NCBI GenBank assembly: GCA_029938505.1
Contig: JAOZUV010000132.1
Coordinates: forward strand, 1-6,123
DNA from: Bacteroidales bacterium
Lineage (GTDB): Bacteria > Bacteroidota > Bacteroidia > Bacteroidales > GCA-2711565
Direction: 5' to 3'
Length of the DNA: 6,123 bases
Shown here one piece after another: positions 187 to 5,966 of the stretch. Numbering within the stretch: the stretch's first letter is position 1; the number at the start of each line of letters is the position of its first letter. The translations under genes were made by a program, and so were the position numbers. The notes beneath the pieces are model-generated. The model saw only the letters and a program-made list of their open reading frames with translations, was not told the origin of the DNA and ran no database searches.

Positions 187-1956
187 TTAAATCAATTCAA
201 ATTCTTTAAGTGTTTCCTGAGTAGGAACGCCTTTGGTATCCCAACCTCTGAGTTGATAATAATCGCCTATCATGGATTTGAAAAATTCGCGATCAATTTT
301 TTGTCCACGCATAAATCCGGCCAATGATTCCTCCTCAAAATAACGATCCGGTAAAGTATCGTCAGCATTGGTTCGCCCATTGCGCATATTATATTGACGA
401 GCCAAATGTGTTAGATTTGTTCCAATAGCAACCAAACTTTTCTCATTATGATTAAAACCAGTTGCTGCATTCAATAGTTCTGATAAACGATCCAAACCTA
501 AAGCCACAAAATCACAAATGACCAAACTATTTCTAATATTTACAGTATCTAAACTTTCGGCAATGGTTTCAGGAATGTCTTCGATTTTAAAATCGGGACC
601 CATTTCTTGTTCTGTTACCCACGAACGAGTATGCGAAGCAAAATCGGCTACAGCCATCACAAAGGCCATAGTTAAACAACCCTTAGGATTTACGCCTGAG
701 TGCTCCATGCCATAAGTATTGATAGCGAAGAATTCACTTCCTTGGCCAATTTTAGCCGCAGCATCGCGGGTTCCATCAGCGAATATTGTTCCAATACCTT
801 CGCGTTTAGCCATTTTATTTATCAATTCACGTTGAGCTTTGGCATTACCCCAATCTAGTTGCAAACCATCCCATTCGTCCAATAAATTTTTCTCGTAGCA
901 CTCCATTGCAAAGGAACAGGTGACTCCGGTACTAATACTATCCATACCTAAATCGTTACACATCTCATTGGCCCAAGCCACATCTTTAATGCTGTTCACC
1001 ATACTTCCTGAACCTAGGAATGCAGTGGTTTCATATTCGGGCCCTTCAATTTCGTGATCATCCCAACGTGCCCATTTTGAGCATCGTATAGAACAATTAT
1101 AGCAAGAGGTGTCTTCCCAATTCAATTCTTCACGAGCAGCTTCCGAACTGATTTTTTCAAAATCATCAAATACTACTTCCTTGAAATTCTTAGTTGGAAG
1201 AAATTCGTTTTCCTGTCCGCTACGAACACATTTCATGGTTCCTTTCTCGCGGCGGAATTTTACTCCATCATTATCAAGCAAGTCTTTTACAAATTGTTTG
1301 TTCAAGGCCATGAATTTTTCTTCATCAAAATATTTTGTTGGAACTTCTCCATCGGCAACAATTGCTTTAAGGTTTTTTGAACCCATTACTGCACCCGATC
1401 CACCACGTCCATATTGACGATGTTTGTCAACACCAATGCATGCAATCTTGGAAAGTTGTTCTCCGGCCTGTCCGATAGAAGCTACTCGGGTGTCTTTCCC
1501 GCTATGTCTCTCCATCAGGGTATCTGTAGTTTCAAAAATTCCTTTTCCCCAAAGTTCAGAAGCATCTTTTATCTCTTGAATTTTATCAGTAATATTTAGA
1601 TAAATTGGTTTGTCGGATTTCCCGGTAATAACTACATAATCAAATCCGGCTCTTTTCAAAGCGGGGCCAAAATTACCGCCACAATGCGAATCCAATAATG
1701 AATTAGTAGCTGGTGATTTTGTGACTAAAGTAGTGCGTGCACTGGTTTGAACCTTGCTTCCGGTAAATGGTCCATTGGCAAAGATGATCGGGTTTTCAGG
1801 TCCAAAAACATCCGGATTTGGAGCTATTTGTTCCATCAAGGCAAATCCTAAACCTTTACCCCCGATGTATTTTTTAAGTAAATCCTGATCGGAATCTTTG
1901 TTGGAAATCTTCCCGGTAGTTAAATCAATGTATAAGCATTTGTTTGTGTATGACAT
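187..1956 (-). CDS. aor: Aldehyde:ferredoxin oxidoreductase (tungsten/molybdopterin family)
   Basis: The product is a 589-residue cytoplasmic enzyme of the AOR family. These enzymes oxidise aldehydes to carboxylic acids with ferredoxin as electron acceptor, using a tungsten bis-pterin cofactor and one [4Fe-4S] cluster. The N-terminal domain (about 1-205) carries IGGKGLG (31-37), NGPFTG (61-66) and GRGGSGAVMGSKNLKAI (183-199), typical cofactor-binding segments. The cluster ligands are C285-x2-C288-x3-C292 and C481. EYET (E309), the block around NDLGMDSISTG (334-344) and H442 correspond to active-site and pterin-binding positions of Pyrococcus furiosus AOR. The second pterin motif, usually DSLGLC, reads NSLVIC (476-481). 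The length is close to the family norm of about 600, so the gene appears intact. It is the last gene of the leftward cluster, 71 nt after the four-helix-bundle gene. The physiological aldehyde cannot be read from sequence; a member specialised on another substrate is possible. Confidence 0.93.
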   Translation of the reverse strand: MSYTNKCLYIDLTTGKISNKDSDQDLLKKYIGGKGLGFALMEQIAPNPDVFGPENPIIFANGPFTGSKVQTSARTTLVTKSPATNSLLDSHCGGNFGPALKRAGFDYVVITGKSDKPIYLNITDKIQEIKDASELWGKGIFETTDTLMERHSGKDTRVASIGQAGEQLSKIACIGVDKHRQYGRGGSGAVMGSKNLKAIVADGEVPTKYFDEEKFMALNKQFVKDLLDNDGVKFRREKGTMKCVRSGQENEFLPTKNFKEVVFDDFEKISSEAAREELNWEDTSCYNCSIRCSKWARWDDHEIEGPEYETTAFLGSGSMVNSIKDVAWANEMCNDLGMDSISTGVTCSFAMECYEKNLLDEWDGLQLDWGNAKAQRELINKMAKREGIGTIFADGTRDAAAKIGQGSEFFAINTYGMEHSGVNPKGCLTMAFVMAVADFASHTRSWVTEQEMGPDFKIEDIPETIAESLDTVNIRNSLVICDFVALGLDRLSELLNAATGFNHNEKSLVAIGTNLTHLARQYNMRNGRTNADDTLPDRYFEEESLAGFMRGQKIDREFFKSMIGDYYQLRGWDTKGVPTQETLKEFELI

Positions 1957-1993: not shown

Positions 1994-2025
1994 AAGAAAT
2001 AATGAAATACAGAAATAGTGAAATA
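1994..2025 (+). repeat. Octamer array NNGAAATA, left arm beside the four-helix-bundle gene
   Basis: Four contiguous 8-bp units share GAAATA and differ in the first two bases (AA, AT, CA, GT). The array ends 2 bp before the last base of the stop codon of the four-helix-bundle gene as placed on the plus strand (2028-2030). Its partner of opposite orientation lies at 2433-2456, just upstream of that gene's start. Confidence 0.8.
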
Positions 2026-2027
2026 TT

Positions 2028-2417
2028 TTATTTGTTTGCTTTGGATTTAGTTGCTTTTATTAAGAGATTCAGTTTGATTTGAAGTTCTTTTCCAATCTCT
2101 TTTAGTTTATCAGACTCTGATTTAGAAACTAATTTTCTTTGGAAAAGTAAATCTAGCCAATGTTCTATACTTTCAAAATAAGAACCTCGAGCATTGTAAT
2201 AAAAACGCACCTTATCTAAATAATGAAACCTTCCGTAGCCCTCGGCTATATTCGCGCCAATTGAATCTATGGATCGAATAAACTGTTGCCCAATACTCCA
2301 TTTTAAATCCTTCTCGAGAGATTGATATATTTCCCATGCGTATAATAATAACTCTTTGGAGAGTTTATAAACTTCTAAATCATTTAGGATAATATATTTC
2401 GATTTCTCAGAATTCAT
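2028..2417 (-). CDS. Four-helix-bundle protein (S23 / 23S rRNA intervening-sequence protein family)
   Basis: The product is a 129-residue protein of the small four-helix-bundle family (TIGR02436 / PF05635 type), first known from ORFs in intervening sequences of bacterial 23S rRNA and related to the Avd accessory protein of diversity-generating retroelements. Its biochemical role is not established. Diagnostic features are an early DLEVYKLSKEL helix (13-23), the signature SIGANIAEGYGR (52-63) and ARGSYFESIEHWLDL (76-90) at the third helix, followed by a Lys-rich fourth helix. There is no signal peptide or membrane segment. The length is normal (about 115-130). No rRNA, reverse transcriptase or variable-repeat pair lies nearby, so neither classic context applies. 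The gene is bracketed by inverted 8-bp-period arrays at 1994-2025 and 2433-2456, which suggests a cassette inserted between hom and aor. The start follows an AT-rich leader with no clear ribosome-binding site. Confidence 0.9.
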   Translation of the reverse strand: MNSEKSKYIILNDLEVYKLSKELLLYAWEIYQSLEKDLKWSIGQQFIRSIDSIGANIAEGYGRFHYLDKVRFYYNARGSYFESIEHWLDLLFQRKLVSKSESDKLKEIGKELQIKLNLLIKATKSKANK

Positions 2418-2432
2418 AATAGATTAATCTTC

Positions 2433-2456
2433 TATTTCATTATTTCTTTATTTCAC
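2433..2456 (-). repeat. Octamer array NNGAAATA, right arm beside the four-helix-bundle gene
   Basis: Read on the minus strand, three contiguous 8-bp units share GAAATA with leading dinucleotides GT, AA and AT. The AA-AT pair gives a 16-bp stretch identical to the first two units of the left arm (1994-2009), so the two arms form an inverted repeat around the gene. The array lies 15 nt upstream of the four-helix-bundle ATG and 14 nt from the end of the homoserine dehydrogenase gene. Confidence 0.8.
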
Positions 2457-2470
2457 TATTAAAATAAATG

Positions 2471-3496
2471 TTAACAACATTTCTTATTTCTATGAATCGC
2501 TAAAATATCGGTCAGAATTGAGAAACCGGTTTCAATTTTACCTGCTCCGGGACCAACGATAGTAACATCACCTAATAAATCGGTGGTAAATGTTAGTGCA
2601 TTGGTAGCACCCATTACACCAGCCAATGGATGAGACATATCAACCATTTCAGGAGCTACGCTACCTATTACTTTTCCATCTTTTTTCTCTACCGAACCGA
2701 TGAGTTTCCAACGTGCATTTTGTTTTTTTGCTTTTGCGATATCTTCCAAAGTAATTTTTGTAATTCCTTCGCAACTTACATCAGCAATTTTGATTCCGGC
2801 ATTCATTACAATATTTGCAAGGATTGTAACTTTTCCTCTTGCATCATGACCTTCAACATCACCTGTTGGGTCTGCTTCGGCATAACCTAATTCTTGAGCA
2901 ATTTTTAAAACATCATCATAAGCCATTCCTTTTTCCATTTCGCTAAGCATATAATTGGTTGTCCCGTTAAGGATGCCACGAATCTTAGAAATTTCACAAC
3001 CTGCTAATGGGCCATCAGTTAAATTAATAATTGGAGTTCCTGCGCAAACAGTTCCTTCAATCATAAAGGTGACGCCGTTTTCATCAGCTAATTTTTTCAT
3101 CTCAGGATAATACAAAGCAGCGGGTCCTTTGTTAGAAGTTACCACATGTTTGCCTGAACTTAAAGCAGCTTTACAATGGTCTATTGCTGGGCCACCAGTT
3201 GTTAGATCGGTGTACGTTAATTCGCACATCAGATCGGCATTACATTTTTTAATTAATGTAACATTATCCATGTCAACTACATCTTTACTGAATTTTTCAC
3301 CAGCATTTGCTTCTTTCATTAAAAGATCCATGTCGAGTCCGTTCGGATTATAAACATTGCCATAAGCAAAATCAGAAATAGCTACAAATTTATAATCAAA
3401 ACCGTATTTTTCTTTTAAGTAATTTTCTTTGTCTTTTAGGATTTCGTATAAACCTTTTCCTACGGTTCCGAATCCGAGTAATGCAATATTTGTCAT
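2471..3496 (-). CDS. hom: Homoserine dehydrogenase, short stand-alone type without ACT domain
   Basis: The product is a 341-residue cytoplasmic oxidoreductase that interconverts L-aspartate 4-semialdehyde and L-homoserine with NAD(P)H, a step towards threonine and methionine. The N-terminal Rossmann fold has G8-x-G10-x2-G13. SNKGPAA (121-127) supplies the conserved Asn-Lys of the nucleotide/substrate cleft, and NGTTNYML (177-184) is a family hallmark. The catalytic signature runs through EADPTGDVEGHDARGK (207-222); E207, D218 and K222 match yeast E208, D219 and K223 almost residue for residue. The chain ends after the catalytic domain with GPGAGKIETG and a Cys-Cys C-terminus. It therefore has no regulatory ACT domain and no fused aspartokinase, resembling the short archaeal-type enzymes. 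The gene lies 183 nt after the PLP enzyme gene on the same strand. Feedback control by threonine through an ACT domain is not expected (inference). Confidence 0.93.
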   Translation of the reverse strand: MTNIALLGFGTVGKGLYEILKDKENYLKEKYGFDYKFVAISDFAYGNVYNPNGLDMDLLMKEANAGEKFSKDVVDMDNVTLIKKCNADLMCELTYTDLTTGGPAIDHCKAALSSGKHVVTSNKGPAALYYPEMKKLADENGVTFMIEGTVCAGTPIINLTDGPLAGCEISKIRGILNGTTNYMLSEMEKGMAYDDVLKIAQELGYAEADPTGDVEGHDARGKVTILANIVMNAGIKIADVSCEGITKITLEDIAKAKKQNARWKLIGSVEKKDGKVIGSVAPEMVDMSHPLAGVMGATNALTFTTDLLGDVTIVGPGAGKIETGFSILTDILAIHRNKKCC

Positions 3497-3533: not shown

Positions 3534-3563
3534 AAATTTGATAACGTTTAATCAAATTTGATA
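3534..3563. promoter_or_regulatory. Palindrome and direct repeat upstream of hom
   Basis: ATCAAATTTGAT (3551-3562) is a perfect 12-bp palindrome. AAATTTGATA occurs at 3534-3543 and again at 3554-3563, exactly 20 bp (about two helical turns) apart. The pair sits 40-70 nt upstream of the hom start and could be an operator. The word AATTTGAT is also the unit of the octamer array at 5789-5836, so this may instead be a decayed repeat. No convincing TAnnTTTG promoter box for hom was found beside it. Confidence 0.4.
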
Positions 3564-3578
3564 CTATATTTTAATCGT

Positions 3579-3610
3579 GTGTTTTTGTGTTAAAGTGTTT
3601 GGGTGTTTAT
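3579..3610 (+). repeat. Octamer array GTGTTNNN, left arm
   Basis: Four contiguous 8-bp units share GTGTT and end in the variable triplets TTT, AAA, TGG and TAT. The array lies between hom and the PLP gene. It faces an inverted partner at 3649-3672; over 24 aligned positions (3588-3611) about 18 match the complement of that arm. Confidence 0.75.
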
Positions 3611-3648
3611 GTTGTATGAACATTTTAAAATTTTATTCAAACAGGCGC

Positions 3649-3672
3649 ATTAACACTTGAACACCATAACAT
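3649..3672 (-). repeat. Octamer array GTGTTNNN, right arm
   Basis: On the minus strand three 8-bp units read ATGTT-ATG, GTGTT-CAA and GTGTT-AAT. The arm begins 7 nt past the PLP gene stop codon, and 38 nt separate it from the left arm. RNA from this stretch could form an imperfect hairpin. No T tract follows, so it is not scored as a terminator. Confidence 0.75.
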
Positions 3673-3679
3673 ATTCTTT

Positions 3680-5146
3680 CTATCTTCTTAAACTAGCTGA
3701 AGAGGCACCGCCCGCAGAAAATTCGGGGGAAGTAGACTCAATTTTTTTACCATCGAGTACAGCCAATGCTTGATCCAAATCAGCAATAACATCATCCGGA
3801 TGTTCGGCACCTACACATAAACGAATCAAGTTTCCCGGAACATCAGCAAGTTCACGGCCTTCTTCGCCTTGTTGTGAGTGAGTAGAAATAGCGGGAATAG
3901 TGGCCACAGATTTTATTCGACCAAGATCAGTTGCTCTCCAAATGCGTTGTAGTCCGTCGAAAACATCACGGGCAGCTTGCGCACCGCCTTTTACACGGAA
4001 TGACATTAAATGACCAAAGCGATTTACTTTTTCGTTATATAATTCGTCGTATTCTGAATCTACCAGAACAAGATATTTTTTTGCTAATTCGTTTAATGGG
4101 TGTGATTCCAATCCTAGATAATCCACTTGTTCGATCTGTGGGTGTTTTTCAAGATATTTTGCCACCGTCATTGTGCTACGACTCATCAAATCCATTTTTG
4201 AACGAAGTGTACGAATATCATTCAAGGTCAGAATAGCATTCATAGGTGAAATATTCGGTCCATTATCGCGGTTTGGTAGAGCTTTGATATATAAACCAAA
4301 ATTCTCTTTCATAAAATCATTATCTATGTTTGAAGTTAGATTTTTACGGGCAATTACTGCTCCGGCAACTCCAAAACCACTAGTGGTTAAACTTTTAGTT
4401 ACTGATTGAATTACAATATCAGCTCCCCAAGCTAGTGGGCGCATTAGAGCAGGCGAAGCAACAGTTCCATCAACGATTAAAGGAATGCCGTGTTTGTGAG
4501 CAATCTTGGCAACTTCTTCTAAATCGAAAAAAGCTTGTCCAGGATTACTTGGCATTTCACCATATAAAAAACGAGTATTTTCATCAATTAGTTTTTCCCA
4601 TTCACTCAAGTCGTTTGAGTTAATGACTTTACGCCATTCAATTCCTTTTTCCTCATCTTTACGGATGGCGAATTGTTGGAAAGTTCCACCATAAACCTGG
4701 CATGTTGCTACAAAATTCATTGGAGCATCCGGTTTTTTCGGGTCAACAACAAGGAATGGTTCGCAGGCACTATGGATAGCTGCCATACCTGAAGATGTTG
4801 CACAACAACTGGCATCAATATCAGTTCCATAGGTTTCTAACAAAGCAAGTACACCTTCCAGATAGTACATGCTTGGGTTACCAATGCGTGAATAACACCA
4901 GGTTGGAATTTGATAGCTCAATGCAGCTTCCATTTCATCCGAATCGCGATAGGCTTGCGAAGCAGCCATATAAATTGGCTCGATGGTTGATCCTTGATTA
5001 AAATCGAGGGCTTCTTGCATGGAGTAAACGCCGTGTACTGCAATCGTATCAAAACGGCATTTTTTCATACTCTTTTTGTATTCTTCGTGCCATTCGGCTG
5101 AGCGTTTGGCGGCTTCTAAATAGTGGTTAATACCTTTAGGACTCAT
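3680..5146 (-). CDS. Divergent Cys/Met-metabolism PLP-dependent enzyme (trans-sulfuration family)
   Basis: The 488-residue product belongs to the cystathionine gamma-synthase / O-acetylhomoserine sulfhydrylase / methionine gamma-lyase superfamily (fold type I, cytoplasmic). Visible landmarks are YSRIGNP (85-91), SSGMAAI (118-124) for the PLP phosphate, YGGT (152-155) whose Tyr stacks on PLP, EMPSNP (197-202), D226 in VDGT, the Schiff-base lysine K251 in SVTKS, and IRLCVGAEHPDD (441-452) whose Arg binds the substrate carboxylate. Two usual motifs are altered: VDNT is VDGT, and the TKYxxGHSD stretch is TKSLTTSGFG. The protein is about 60-90 residues longer than typical members, with an N-terminal extension (about 1-30) and a Ser/Ala-rich C-terminal tail (471-488). 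G154 replaces the Cys of classical methionine gamma-lyases, which argues against that activity. A gamma-replacement role on an activated homoserine fits the neighbouring hom gene, but the exact reaction is not determined. It heads the leftward cluster and diverges from the lrp-type gene. Confidence 0.85.
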   Translation of the reverse strand: MSPKGINHYLEAAKRSAEWHEEYKKSMKKCRFDTIAVHGVYSMQEALDFNQGSTIEPIYMAASQAYRDSDEMEAALSYQIPTWCYSRIGNPSMYYLEGVLALLETYGTDIDASCCATSSGMAAIHSACEPFLVVDPKKPDAPMNFVATCQVYGGTFQQFAIRKDEEKGIEWRKVINSNDLSEWEKLIDENTRFLYGEMPSNPGQAFFDLEEVAKIAHKHGIPLIVDGTVASPALMRPLAWGADIVIQSVTKSLTTSGFGVAGAVIARKNLTSNIDNDFMKENFGLYIKALPNRDNGPNISPMNAILTLNDIRTLRSKMDLMSRSTMTVAKYLEKHPQIEQVDYLGLESHPLNELAKKYLVLVDSEYDELYNEKVNRFGHLMSFRVKGGAQAARDVFDGLQRIWRATDLGRIKSVATIPAISTHSQQGEEGRELADVPGNLIRLCVGAEHPDDVIADLDQALAVLDGKKIESTSPEFSAGGASSASLRR

Positions 5147-5317: not shown

Positions 5318-5791
5318 ATGAAAACTCGCTTTCATCTTGATAGTTTAGATCAACGAATTCTTAAAATGTTGACGCAAAATGCACGTGTTCCTTATCTTGA
5401 AATTGCCCGTGCTTGTAAGGTTTCAGGAGCAGCTATTCATCAACGAATTCATCGAATGATTGAGGCTAAAGTTATCTCGGGTTCGCAGTTTAATTTGAAT
5501 CCCAAGGGAATGGGGTATCTTACTTGTGCTTTTATTGGATTACAGGTGAATTTGACTTCTTCCAGTACACATGAAGATGTTTTTTCAAAGATCAATCAGA
5601 TAACAGAAATTGTGGAATGTCATCATATTACCGGGAAATTTTCATTGCTGATTAAAATTTATGCGCATGATAACGAGCATCTGAAAAAAATTATTGTTGA
5701 AAAGGTTCAGTCGATTATTGAAATTACCAATACAGAGACTTTTTTATCTCTGGAAGAAGGTTTTATAAGACAACTACCGATTGAAAGTTAA
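5318..5791 (+). CDS. Lrp/AsnC-family transcriptional regulator
   Basis: The 157-residue product has the normal length and two-domain build of Lrp/AsnC proteins, which sense amino acids or related metabolites as oligomers. The N-terminal winged helix-turn-helix (about 7-60) starts with LDSLDQRILKMLTQNAR and continues through EIARACKVSGAAIHQRIHRM, the recognition helix region, then the wing VISGSQFNLNPKGMG. The C-terminal RAM domain (about 68-150) has the alternating beta-alpha pattern, including VECHHITGKFSLLIKI (99-114). There the usual GDYD-like ligand loop reads GKFS, so the effector may differ from those of leucine or asparagine regulators. Divergent orientation from the PLP enzyme gene, with dyads in the shared 171-bp region, suggests that it controls that gene and perhaps itself. 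No Shine-Dalgarno site precedes the ATG. An octamer array begins at its stop codon. Confidence 0.92.
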   Translation: MKTRFHLDSLDQRILKMLTQNARVPYLEIARACKVSGAAIHQRIHRMIEAKVISGSQFNLNPKGMGYLTCAFIGLQVNLTSSSTHEDVFSKINQITEIVECHHITGKFSLLIKIYAHDNEHLKKIIVEKVQSIIEITNTETFLSLEEGFIRQLPIES

Positions 5792-5836
5792 TTTGATAAT
5801 TTGATAATTTGGAAATTTGAAAATGAGTTAATTTGA
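5789..5836 (+). repeat. Octamer array NAATTTGN, left arm, overlapping the lrp stop codon
   Basis: Six contiguous 8-bp units follow the core AATTTG. Units 1, 2 and 6 are TAATTTGA, unit 3 is TAATTTGG, unit 4 is AAATTTGA, and unit 5 is degenerate (AAATGAGT). The first unit contains the TAA stop codon of the regulator gene. The inverted partner lies at 5884-5919. Confidence 0.8.
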
Positions 5837-5883
5837 AATTTTAATCATTTATTTATCAGAATTTTAATCAGATAGAAATTTTT

Positions 5884-5919
5884 ATTGACACATTGAAAAA
5901 TTGACAAATTGGCTAATTA
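5884..5919 (-). repeat. Octamer array, right arm, running into the lpd promoter
   Basis: On the plus strand four 8-bp units begin with ATTG (ATTG followed by ACAC, AAAA, ACAA and GCTA) and a partial fifth follows. The reverse complement reads as CAATTTGT-like units that align with 5797-5832; about 27 of 36 positions match and the mismatches cluster at unit junctions. The central 47 nt between the arms is AT-rich with no clear feature. The arm ends 7 nt before the -7 box of the next gene. Confidence 0.7.
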
Positions 5920-5934
5920 TTTTTACTAATTTTG
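5901..5934 (+). promoter_or_regulatory. Candidate Bacteroidetes-type promoter for the dihydrolipoamide dehydrogenase gene
   Basis: TAATTTTG (5927-5934) fits TAnnTTTG exactly and is followed by C, as often seen. Possible upstream TTG elements are at 5901-5903 (spacer 23) and 5909-5911 (spacer 15); neither has the ideal 19-21 spacing. Both TTG copies lie inside the octamer array, so part of this promoter may derive from the repeat. The implied leader is about 26 nt. Confidence 0.55.
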
Positions 5935-5966
5935 CAATTTATAATAAATCTAAAATACAAACATAA

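Follow-up and report, generated by a model that had tools for sequence, protein, structure and literature searches.

The known 23S rRNA intervening sequences (IVS) are excised by RNase III, and STRR is the name given to the heptanucleotide repeats of cyanobacteria. MITEs and insertion sequences are small multicopy units with inverted ends and empty sites, while REP/RAYT is a Y1 transposase system with noncoding inverted ends that could be moved in trans.

IVS have been termed selfish with transposition among the ideas on their origin, and the accessible part of one study describes both the role of S23p and the spread of the 23S rRNA IVS as unclear (PMC4990558). The same part of that study reports three tandem heptamers immediately before the S23p start in the Coxiella IVS, with fewer in some strains, and a Xanthomonas relative of S23p that is a pentamer (PMC4990558). 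Two Xanthomonas strains carry 70 and 75 inverted pairs, respectively, of GGGAATC heptanucleotide repeats, such repeats being generally not tied to mobile elements and discussed as one motif per genome in the accessible text (PMC4692102). An excerpted source describes heptamer arrays for which there was “no mechanism evident” (PMC4679880), and STRR are mentioned in the accessible part of another (PMC2670836). Within these partial texts, heptamer arrays are described without S23p (PMC4679880; PMC4692102) and S23p without general inverted arrays (PMC4990558). Searches of the open-access literature, outside which lie most subscription papers and all preprints, yielded no paper linking S23p to general inverted arrays, such that the novelty of this link is provisional.

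A unit comparable to each of these systems lies in the window, the 6,123-nt stretch of Bacteroidales DNA analysed here. As in a 23S rRNA IVS, about 0.4-0.5 kb of DNA with inverted ends carries a member of the same protein family, and an S23p ORF lies between inverted repeats that can close a stem; the difference is that an IVS is inside a 23S rRNA gene while the window unit is between hom and aor. S23p units share with MITEs and insertion sequences their small size, inverted ends, multiple copies and empty sites, but have neither a transposase nor a terminal sequence common to distant elements. Their inverted ends could, as in REP/RAYT, be moved in trans and their copy numbers co-vary with Y1, but the window ends are arrays where Y1 genes have palindromes (judged by eye) and the unit holds no Y1 gene. 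The heptanucleotide repeats (cyanobacterial STRR, Xanthomonas GGGAATC and the TAACTGA of Beggiatoaceae, Cyanobacteria and Bacteroidetes) likewise have period 7 and are intergenic, but are described without an S23p gene, whereas S23p elements each have their own motif. Cyanobacterial relatives of the unit have heptamer arms; the window arms are octamers and the host is not cyanobacterial. Avd of the diversity-generating retroelements (DGR) has the same fold as the window S23p, but no reverse transcriptase was found among the five window proteins scanned. Judged from comparative sequence analysis, the window unit is probably a small transposase-less mobile cassette, a general intergenic form of the 23S rRNA IVS/S23p element.

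The unit between hom and aor

The whole unit spans 1994..2460 on the minus strand with a 129-aa S23p/four-helix-bundle ORF (2028..2417, minus strand) that matches PF05635 with 82.3 bits (cut-off 33.8) and TIGR02436 with 76.3 (cut-off 24). Four NNGAAATA units on the plus strand at about 1994..2025 form the 3′ arm of the gene, which is C-richer in the gene sense, and three units on the minus strand at 2433..2460 form the G-richer 5′ arm, confirming the four-against-three inverted arrangement described in the sequence-only reading. The host genes hom (homoserine dehydrogenase; 2471..3496, minus strand) and aor (aldehyde ferredoxin oxidoreductase; 187..1956, minus strand) are the upstream and downstream neighbours, with an OAH/OAS-sulfhydrylase-like gene at 3680..5146 (minus strand) and beyond it an AsnC-type regulator on the plus strand. 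No transposase is present inside 1994-2460, where S23p is the sole ORF of at least 60 aa, no Rfam match was found in the window, with the unit adjoining two protein genes (hom and aor), and no RVT match was found among the five window proteins scanned.

The window arms are 89% complementary over 28 ungapped nt with a spacing of 407 nt, giving an arm score of 20.5 where even 14 was reached by just 13 of 411 other genes at the same loci. The 16-bp stretch previously seen in both arms was recovered, plus-strand 1994-2009 being the reverse complement of 2433-2448, though it is offset by one unit relative to the best 28-nt arm alignment. The repeat had been taken as an exact 8-mer, of which the 8-bp periodicity holds and the exactness does not, each unit having six fixed and two free bases. 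Compared with those of L001, the nearest relative that is filled, the window arms differ at 4 of 14 free positions as against 1 of 46 fixed ones (Fisher p 0.009). As RNA, the unit folds so that a 12+7+7-bp stem closes it, with an MFE of -98.1 kcal/mol and a z of -2.6, which none of 100 shuffles equalled.

Three other repeats were seen in the window. In the gap between the sulfhydrylase-like gene and hom (3560-3665) there is a gene-less inverted GTGTT-type 8-nt array, seen by eye in L001 too, which was non-significant on shuffling (8 of 100 as good). An AATTTG array in octamer phase lies in the gap from the AsnC-type gene to the following ORF (5790-5935); its inverted partner is weak, and it too was non-significant (32 of 100 as good). 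A long palindrome (ATTCCGGGTTAAGCCTGTCTG...), REP-like by eye, lies downstream of aor at 131-178.

The AF2 model of the window protein (pLDDT 92.5) has four long helices. In Foldseek the nearest solved folds were XCC0516 (2gsc) and BT_0352 (2rld), with TM of 0.73-0.84 by query and five chains in each entry. Avd from the DGR of a Bordetella phage (4dwl; query-length TM-score 0.76) and DGR RNP entries came next with weaker E-values, the Avd chains being 12-13% identical to the model. The dN/dS of the S23p gene (median 0.07, maximum 0.14 in 21 partly non-independent pairs that include different-site pairs) indicates that the protein is under purifying selection.

Paired arrays at S23p genes

To score the arms, the sequence upstream of each gene was aligned to the reverse-complemented downstream sequence, with a threshold score of 14. 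In a first set, 47 of 93 elements reached this threshold, whereas the other genes gave the 13 of 411 noted above, of which three or more are themselves S23p genes that the first profile had missed; genes missed in this way were added by hand to the final non-redundant set and to the 502-kb array count described below. The final set was reduced from 158 unique elements to 150 with flanks of at least 150 bp and then to 118 below 72% nucleotide identity, 66 of which had inverted short-tandem arms as against 21 of 438 other genes (Fisher 2e-34) and 11 of 585 mismatched flank pairs (5e-48). The link between the protein family and such repeats, previously an inference, is now a statistical one, with periodic inverted flanks far above the controls but not at every homologue. 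The threshold was missed by 52 of the 118 elements, which counts against the cassette reading, with L112, L116, L020 and L028 among the low scorers and L197 having two arrays in one orientation.

The layout was found in Bacteroidota, in a second phylum (that of G127, the genome behind L005; Candidatus Aminicenantes), on cyanobacterial and Gemmatimonadota plasmids and in an Azospirillum 23S rRNA intervening sequence. By group, the threshold was passed by 38 of 77 elements in Bacteroidota, 23 of 32 in the second phylum, 5 of 8 on cyanobacterial plasmids and 0 of 1 IVS. When measured from the Pfam match the second phylum has arms at 30 of 32 loci and the Azospirillum IVS has inverted heptamer arms scoring 23.5, the lower values in the final set (23 of 32, and 10.0 for the IVS) resulting from script-chosen ORF limits that differ from the match limits. 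With further records included, 13 of 20 distinct cyanobacterial plasmid loci pass (duplicates L155-L158 excluded), as does the Gemmatimonadota plasmid locus L199 with an arm score of 30.5. In Azospirillum lipoferum 4B plasmid AZO_p2 (L124), the S23p frame lies in a stretch matching bacterial LSU rRNA end to end; none of 18 further S23p loci fell in an Rfam family and these are therefore not rRNA insertions. PF05635 was found in 90 of 118 Bacteroidota genomes and 75 of 149 in the second phylum, with 1-19 copies per genome in the genomes of nine relatives.

Across 41 regions totalling 502 kb and picked around S23p genes, arrays of period 7 (38 against 3 in one shuffle) and period 8 (36 against 3) were enriched, with 41 against 21 for period 6 and 137 against 180 for period 5. 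Nine of the 10 inverted array pairs in these regions enclose an S23p gene, eight being flagged by script (two with hand-added coordinates) and the ninth, L101, being a Pfam hit. Among 61 arms of at least 22 nt, the best period was 14 in 21, 7 in 20, 8 in 14 and another in 6. As such the GAAATA octamer is no family feature, the motif being element-specific and period 7 at least as common as 8. The polarity of the arms was consistent, with G exceeding C in the 5′ arm (gene sense) in 62 of 66 elements, one being opposite and three tied.

Mean similarity of arms on the same strand, compared for 46 elements, was 0.74 above 75% protein identity, 0.34 at 60-75%, 0.27 at 50-60% and 0.19-0.23 below 50%, showing that the motif turns over faster than the protein. 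Homologous arms also vary in their number of units. The idea that the protein reads one conserved array sequence was unsupported, with a weak trend left below 50% protein identity (rho 0.10).

Among S23p genes with tandem neighbours 76 of 85 are in a co-directional setting, with 22 others. Since ordinary genes give 204 of 240, co-direction was rejected as a special signature, and its failure to exceed this baseline counts against the cassette reading. In CRISPR operons of cyanobacterial plasmids, S23p cassettes lie between cas6 and cas4 (L115, L119) and between cas10 and a cmr3-family gene (L121), and at L200 a cassette lies amid two ribonucleotide reductase genes on the strand opposite to both.

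Filled and empty sites

Scanning genomes with Hom yielded 11 loci, eight of which have both hom and aor. Only L001 has an S23p cassette at this boundary (84% amino acid identity with arms of like kind), the cassette being absent from the other seven (L002, L003, L004, L007, L009, L010 and L011), with gaps of 22 and 23 bp between the hom and aor matches in L002 and L003, respectively. The window groups with L001 and L002 in one clade of the hom tree (97/99), whose internal order is unresolved; L002 is empty yet 88.4% identical to the window in hom. The hom contigs of L001 and L002 (85% nucleotide identity) are both in one MAG bin, which may thus mix populations or contain a paralogue. The dS between the window and L001 is nearly equal for the cassette gene (0.65) and hom (0.67), so that both filled copies go back to one old insertion, and the junction alignment is too diverged for target-site duplication to be judged. 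In L011 the hom-aor gap, which has no S23p gene, contains a period-8 TTTAACTA array and a period-7 AATTACG array (7017-7093).

Reciprocal sites were found on two Nostoc plasmids, pC052_D of Nostoc sp. C052 (L118) and pNsp_c of Nostoc sp. ATCC 53789 (L193), which share three adjacent genes that are 94.6, 99.7 and 92.9% identical. At the first junction L118 is filled and L193 empty, while at the second L193 is filled with another cassette and L118 is empty. The difference between L118 and its empty site is the cassette plus about two bases, and the L193 insert also takes in about 37 nt past the 3′ array. No clear target-site duplication was found at the two Nostoc junctions and the inserts differ outside the arrays, which counts against the cassette reading. 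Empty sites, as sought at hom-aor, are therefore present both in relatives of the window and reciprocally on these plasmids.

Similar cassettes also occur at different sites. Those of Trichormus/Scytonema (L160/L159), Aulosira (L117) and Nostoc C052 (L118) have genes that are 76.5-81.7% identical and occupy three unrelated sites, with the aligned similarity beginning and ending at the arms. In the related Bacteroidota genomes G063, G047, G109 and G035 (aligned blocks of about 80-95% nucleotide identity) three have the same cassette at one boundary and the fourth a different cassette with different arms, while the boundary is bare in G074 and, as judged by eye, holds an inverted array without a gene in G098. 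At another Bacteroidota boundary one genome has an internally deleted S23p gene with the arms retained. From these comparisons we infer that the [array]-S23p ORF-[reverse-complement array] unit moves as one. With periodic inverted flanks at homologues, empty sites in relatives and reciprocal Nostoc junctions, the sequence-only description of a mobile cassette without its own transposase stands, while its alternative term “domesticated” is not supported. Neither of the two refuting outcomes named in that description occurred.

Gene-less arrays were also seen, by eye, at site B of L110 (orthologous to L106 6394), where an inverted CGCAGAG-type array takes the place at which relatives have S23p cassettes. 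A further gene-less inverted array is present at L082.

Mobilising enzymes and competing explanations

Copy numbers were compared in 110 of the 118 Bacteroidota genomes, eight without a match being dropped. S23p copy number tracks that of Y1_Tnp with a Spearman coefficient of 0.60 (kinship ignored) and a partial correlation of 0.57 on genome size and 0.51 on size, DDE and ParE, with values of 0.11 for RVT_1, -0.15 for DDE_Tnp_1 (at most 24 scored DDE candidates being counted in three genomes) and, weakly, 0.29 for ParE. The Y1_Tnp correlation would fit an explanation in which a Y1 (HUH) transposase acts in trans on the arms, these STRR- or REP-like hairpins being the element that is mobile or a hot spot and S23p a passenger, as would the gene-less inverted arrays at L110 site B (by eye) and L082 and the complementary flanks at 14 of 30 Y1 genes. 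By eye, however, these Y1 flanks are single palindromes unlike short-tandem arrays, and no Y1 match was found in 6 of the 48 genomes with at least five S23p copies. Given in addition that nine of ten inverted array pairs hold an S23p gene (in regions picked around such genes) and that the protein is under purifying selection, this explanation is unlikely. As a mobiliser, Y1 transposase is tied to the unit by correlation and has ends of its own that look different, and the comparison with Y1_Tnp, RVT_1, DDE_Tnp_1 and ParE established no mobiliser, which counts against the cassette reading.

Movement at the RNA level, in which a trans-acting reverse transcriptase copies the excised unit transcript back and S23p has an Avd-like role, would be in keeping with the resemblance of the S23p fold to both Avd and chains from DGR RNP entries, the presence of S23p inside rRNA, the stem z of -2.6 and the mostly co-directional insertion. 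This explanation is nonetheless quite doubtful, since 25 of the 48 genomes with at least five copies have no RVT_1 match (four having neither this nor Y1), copy numbers are uncorrelated (0.11) and co-direction is at baseline. As an obligate partner, reverse transcriptase is unsupported by the same 25 genomes. Covariation between the arms is likewise weak, 14 pairs giving 220 unchanged, 4 compensatory and 5 G-U positions against 32 one-sided breaks, 6 with both sides broken and 25 gapped, so that support for a stem kept pair by pair is weak, which counts against the cassette reading too.

It is improbable that S23p is an ordinary, non-mobile regulatory gene binding its own flanking arrays and often lost. 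Purifying selection, the similar dS of the cassette gene and hom, implying vertical inheritance between the window and L001, and a gene orientation resembling that of ordinary genes would all agree with such a role. Reciprocal filled and empty Nostoc sites amid near-identical neighbours argue against it, as do the related genes shared by unrelated sites, the boundary occupied by a different cassette and an arm motif uncoupled from the protein. Chance or low-complexity AT-rich repeats, suggested by the AT-rich window and its two non-significant gene-less arrays, were rejected as the cause of the arms and have virtually no likelihood in view of the other-gene and mismatched-flank controls (13/411, 21/438 and 11/585), the period-specific enrichment at 7 and 8 over a single shuffle and the same layout in G+C-rich loci.

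For the transposase-less mobile cassette, the differing motifs suggest that recognition of the ends depends on architecture rather than on a common sequence, the features read being the 7-8 nt phase, the inversion and the strand polarity. An oligomer of S23p, which is related in fold to the DGR cofactor Avd, would bind the unit as a single strand or hairpin and assist a host-supplied enzyme in moving it, with insertion at gene boundaries keeping the operon readable. More tentatively, and with some doubt, such units may make up a cross-phylum class of transposase-less mobile elements, in which each end would be a phased array of 7-8 nt units, directional and inverted, whose motif is element-specific and turns over faster than the protein, while S23p would be a mobility protein and the arms would be rebuilt by the element's own copying process. 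The 23S rRNA IVS and part of the cyanobacterial, Xanthomonas and Bacteroidetes heptanucleotide repeats might then be special cases and remains of this class.

If the IVS and the heptamer arrays are one moving layout, the S23p/IVS question would become testable in harmless laboratory organisms. Likewise, if this is true, many “four helix bundle protein” genes could be marked as mobile by the simple rule of inverted 7-8 nt arrays flanking both sides with the 5′ side G-rich.
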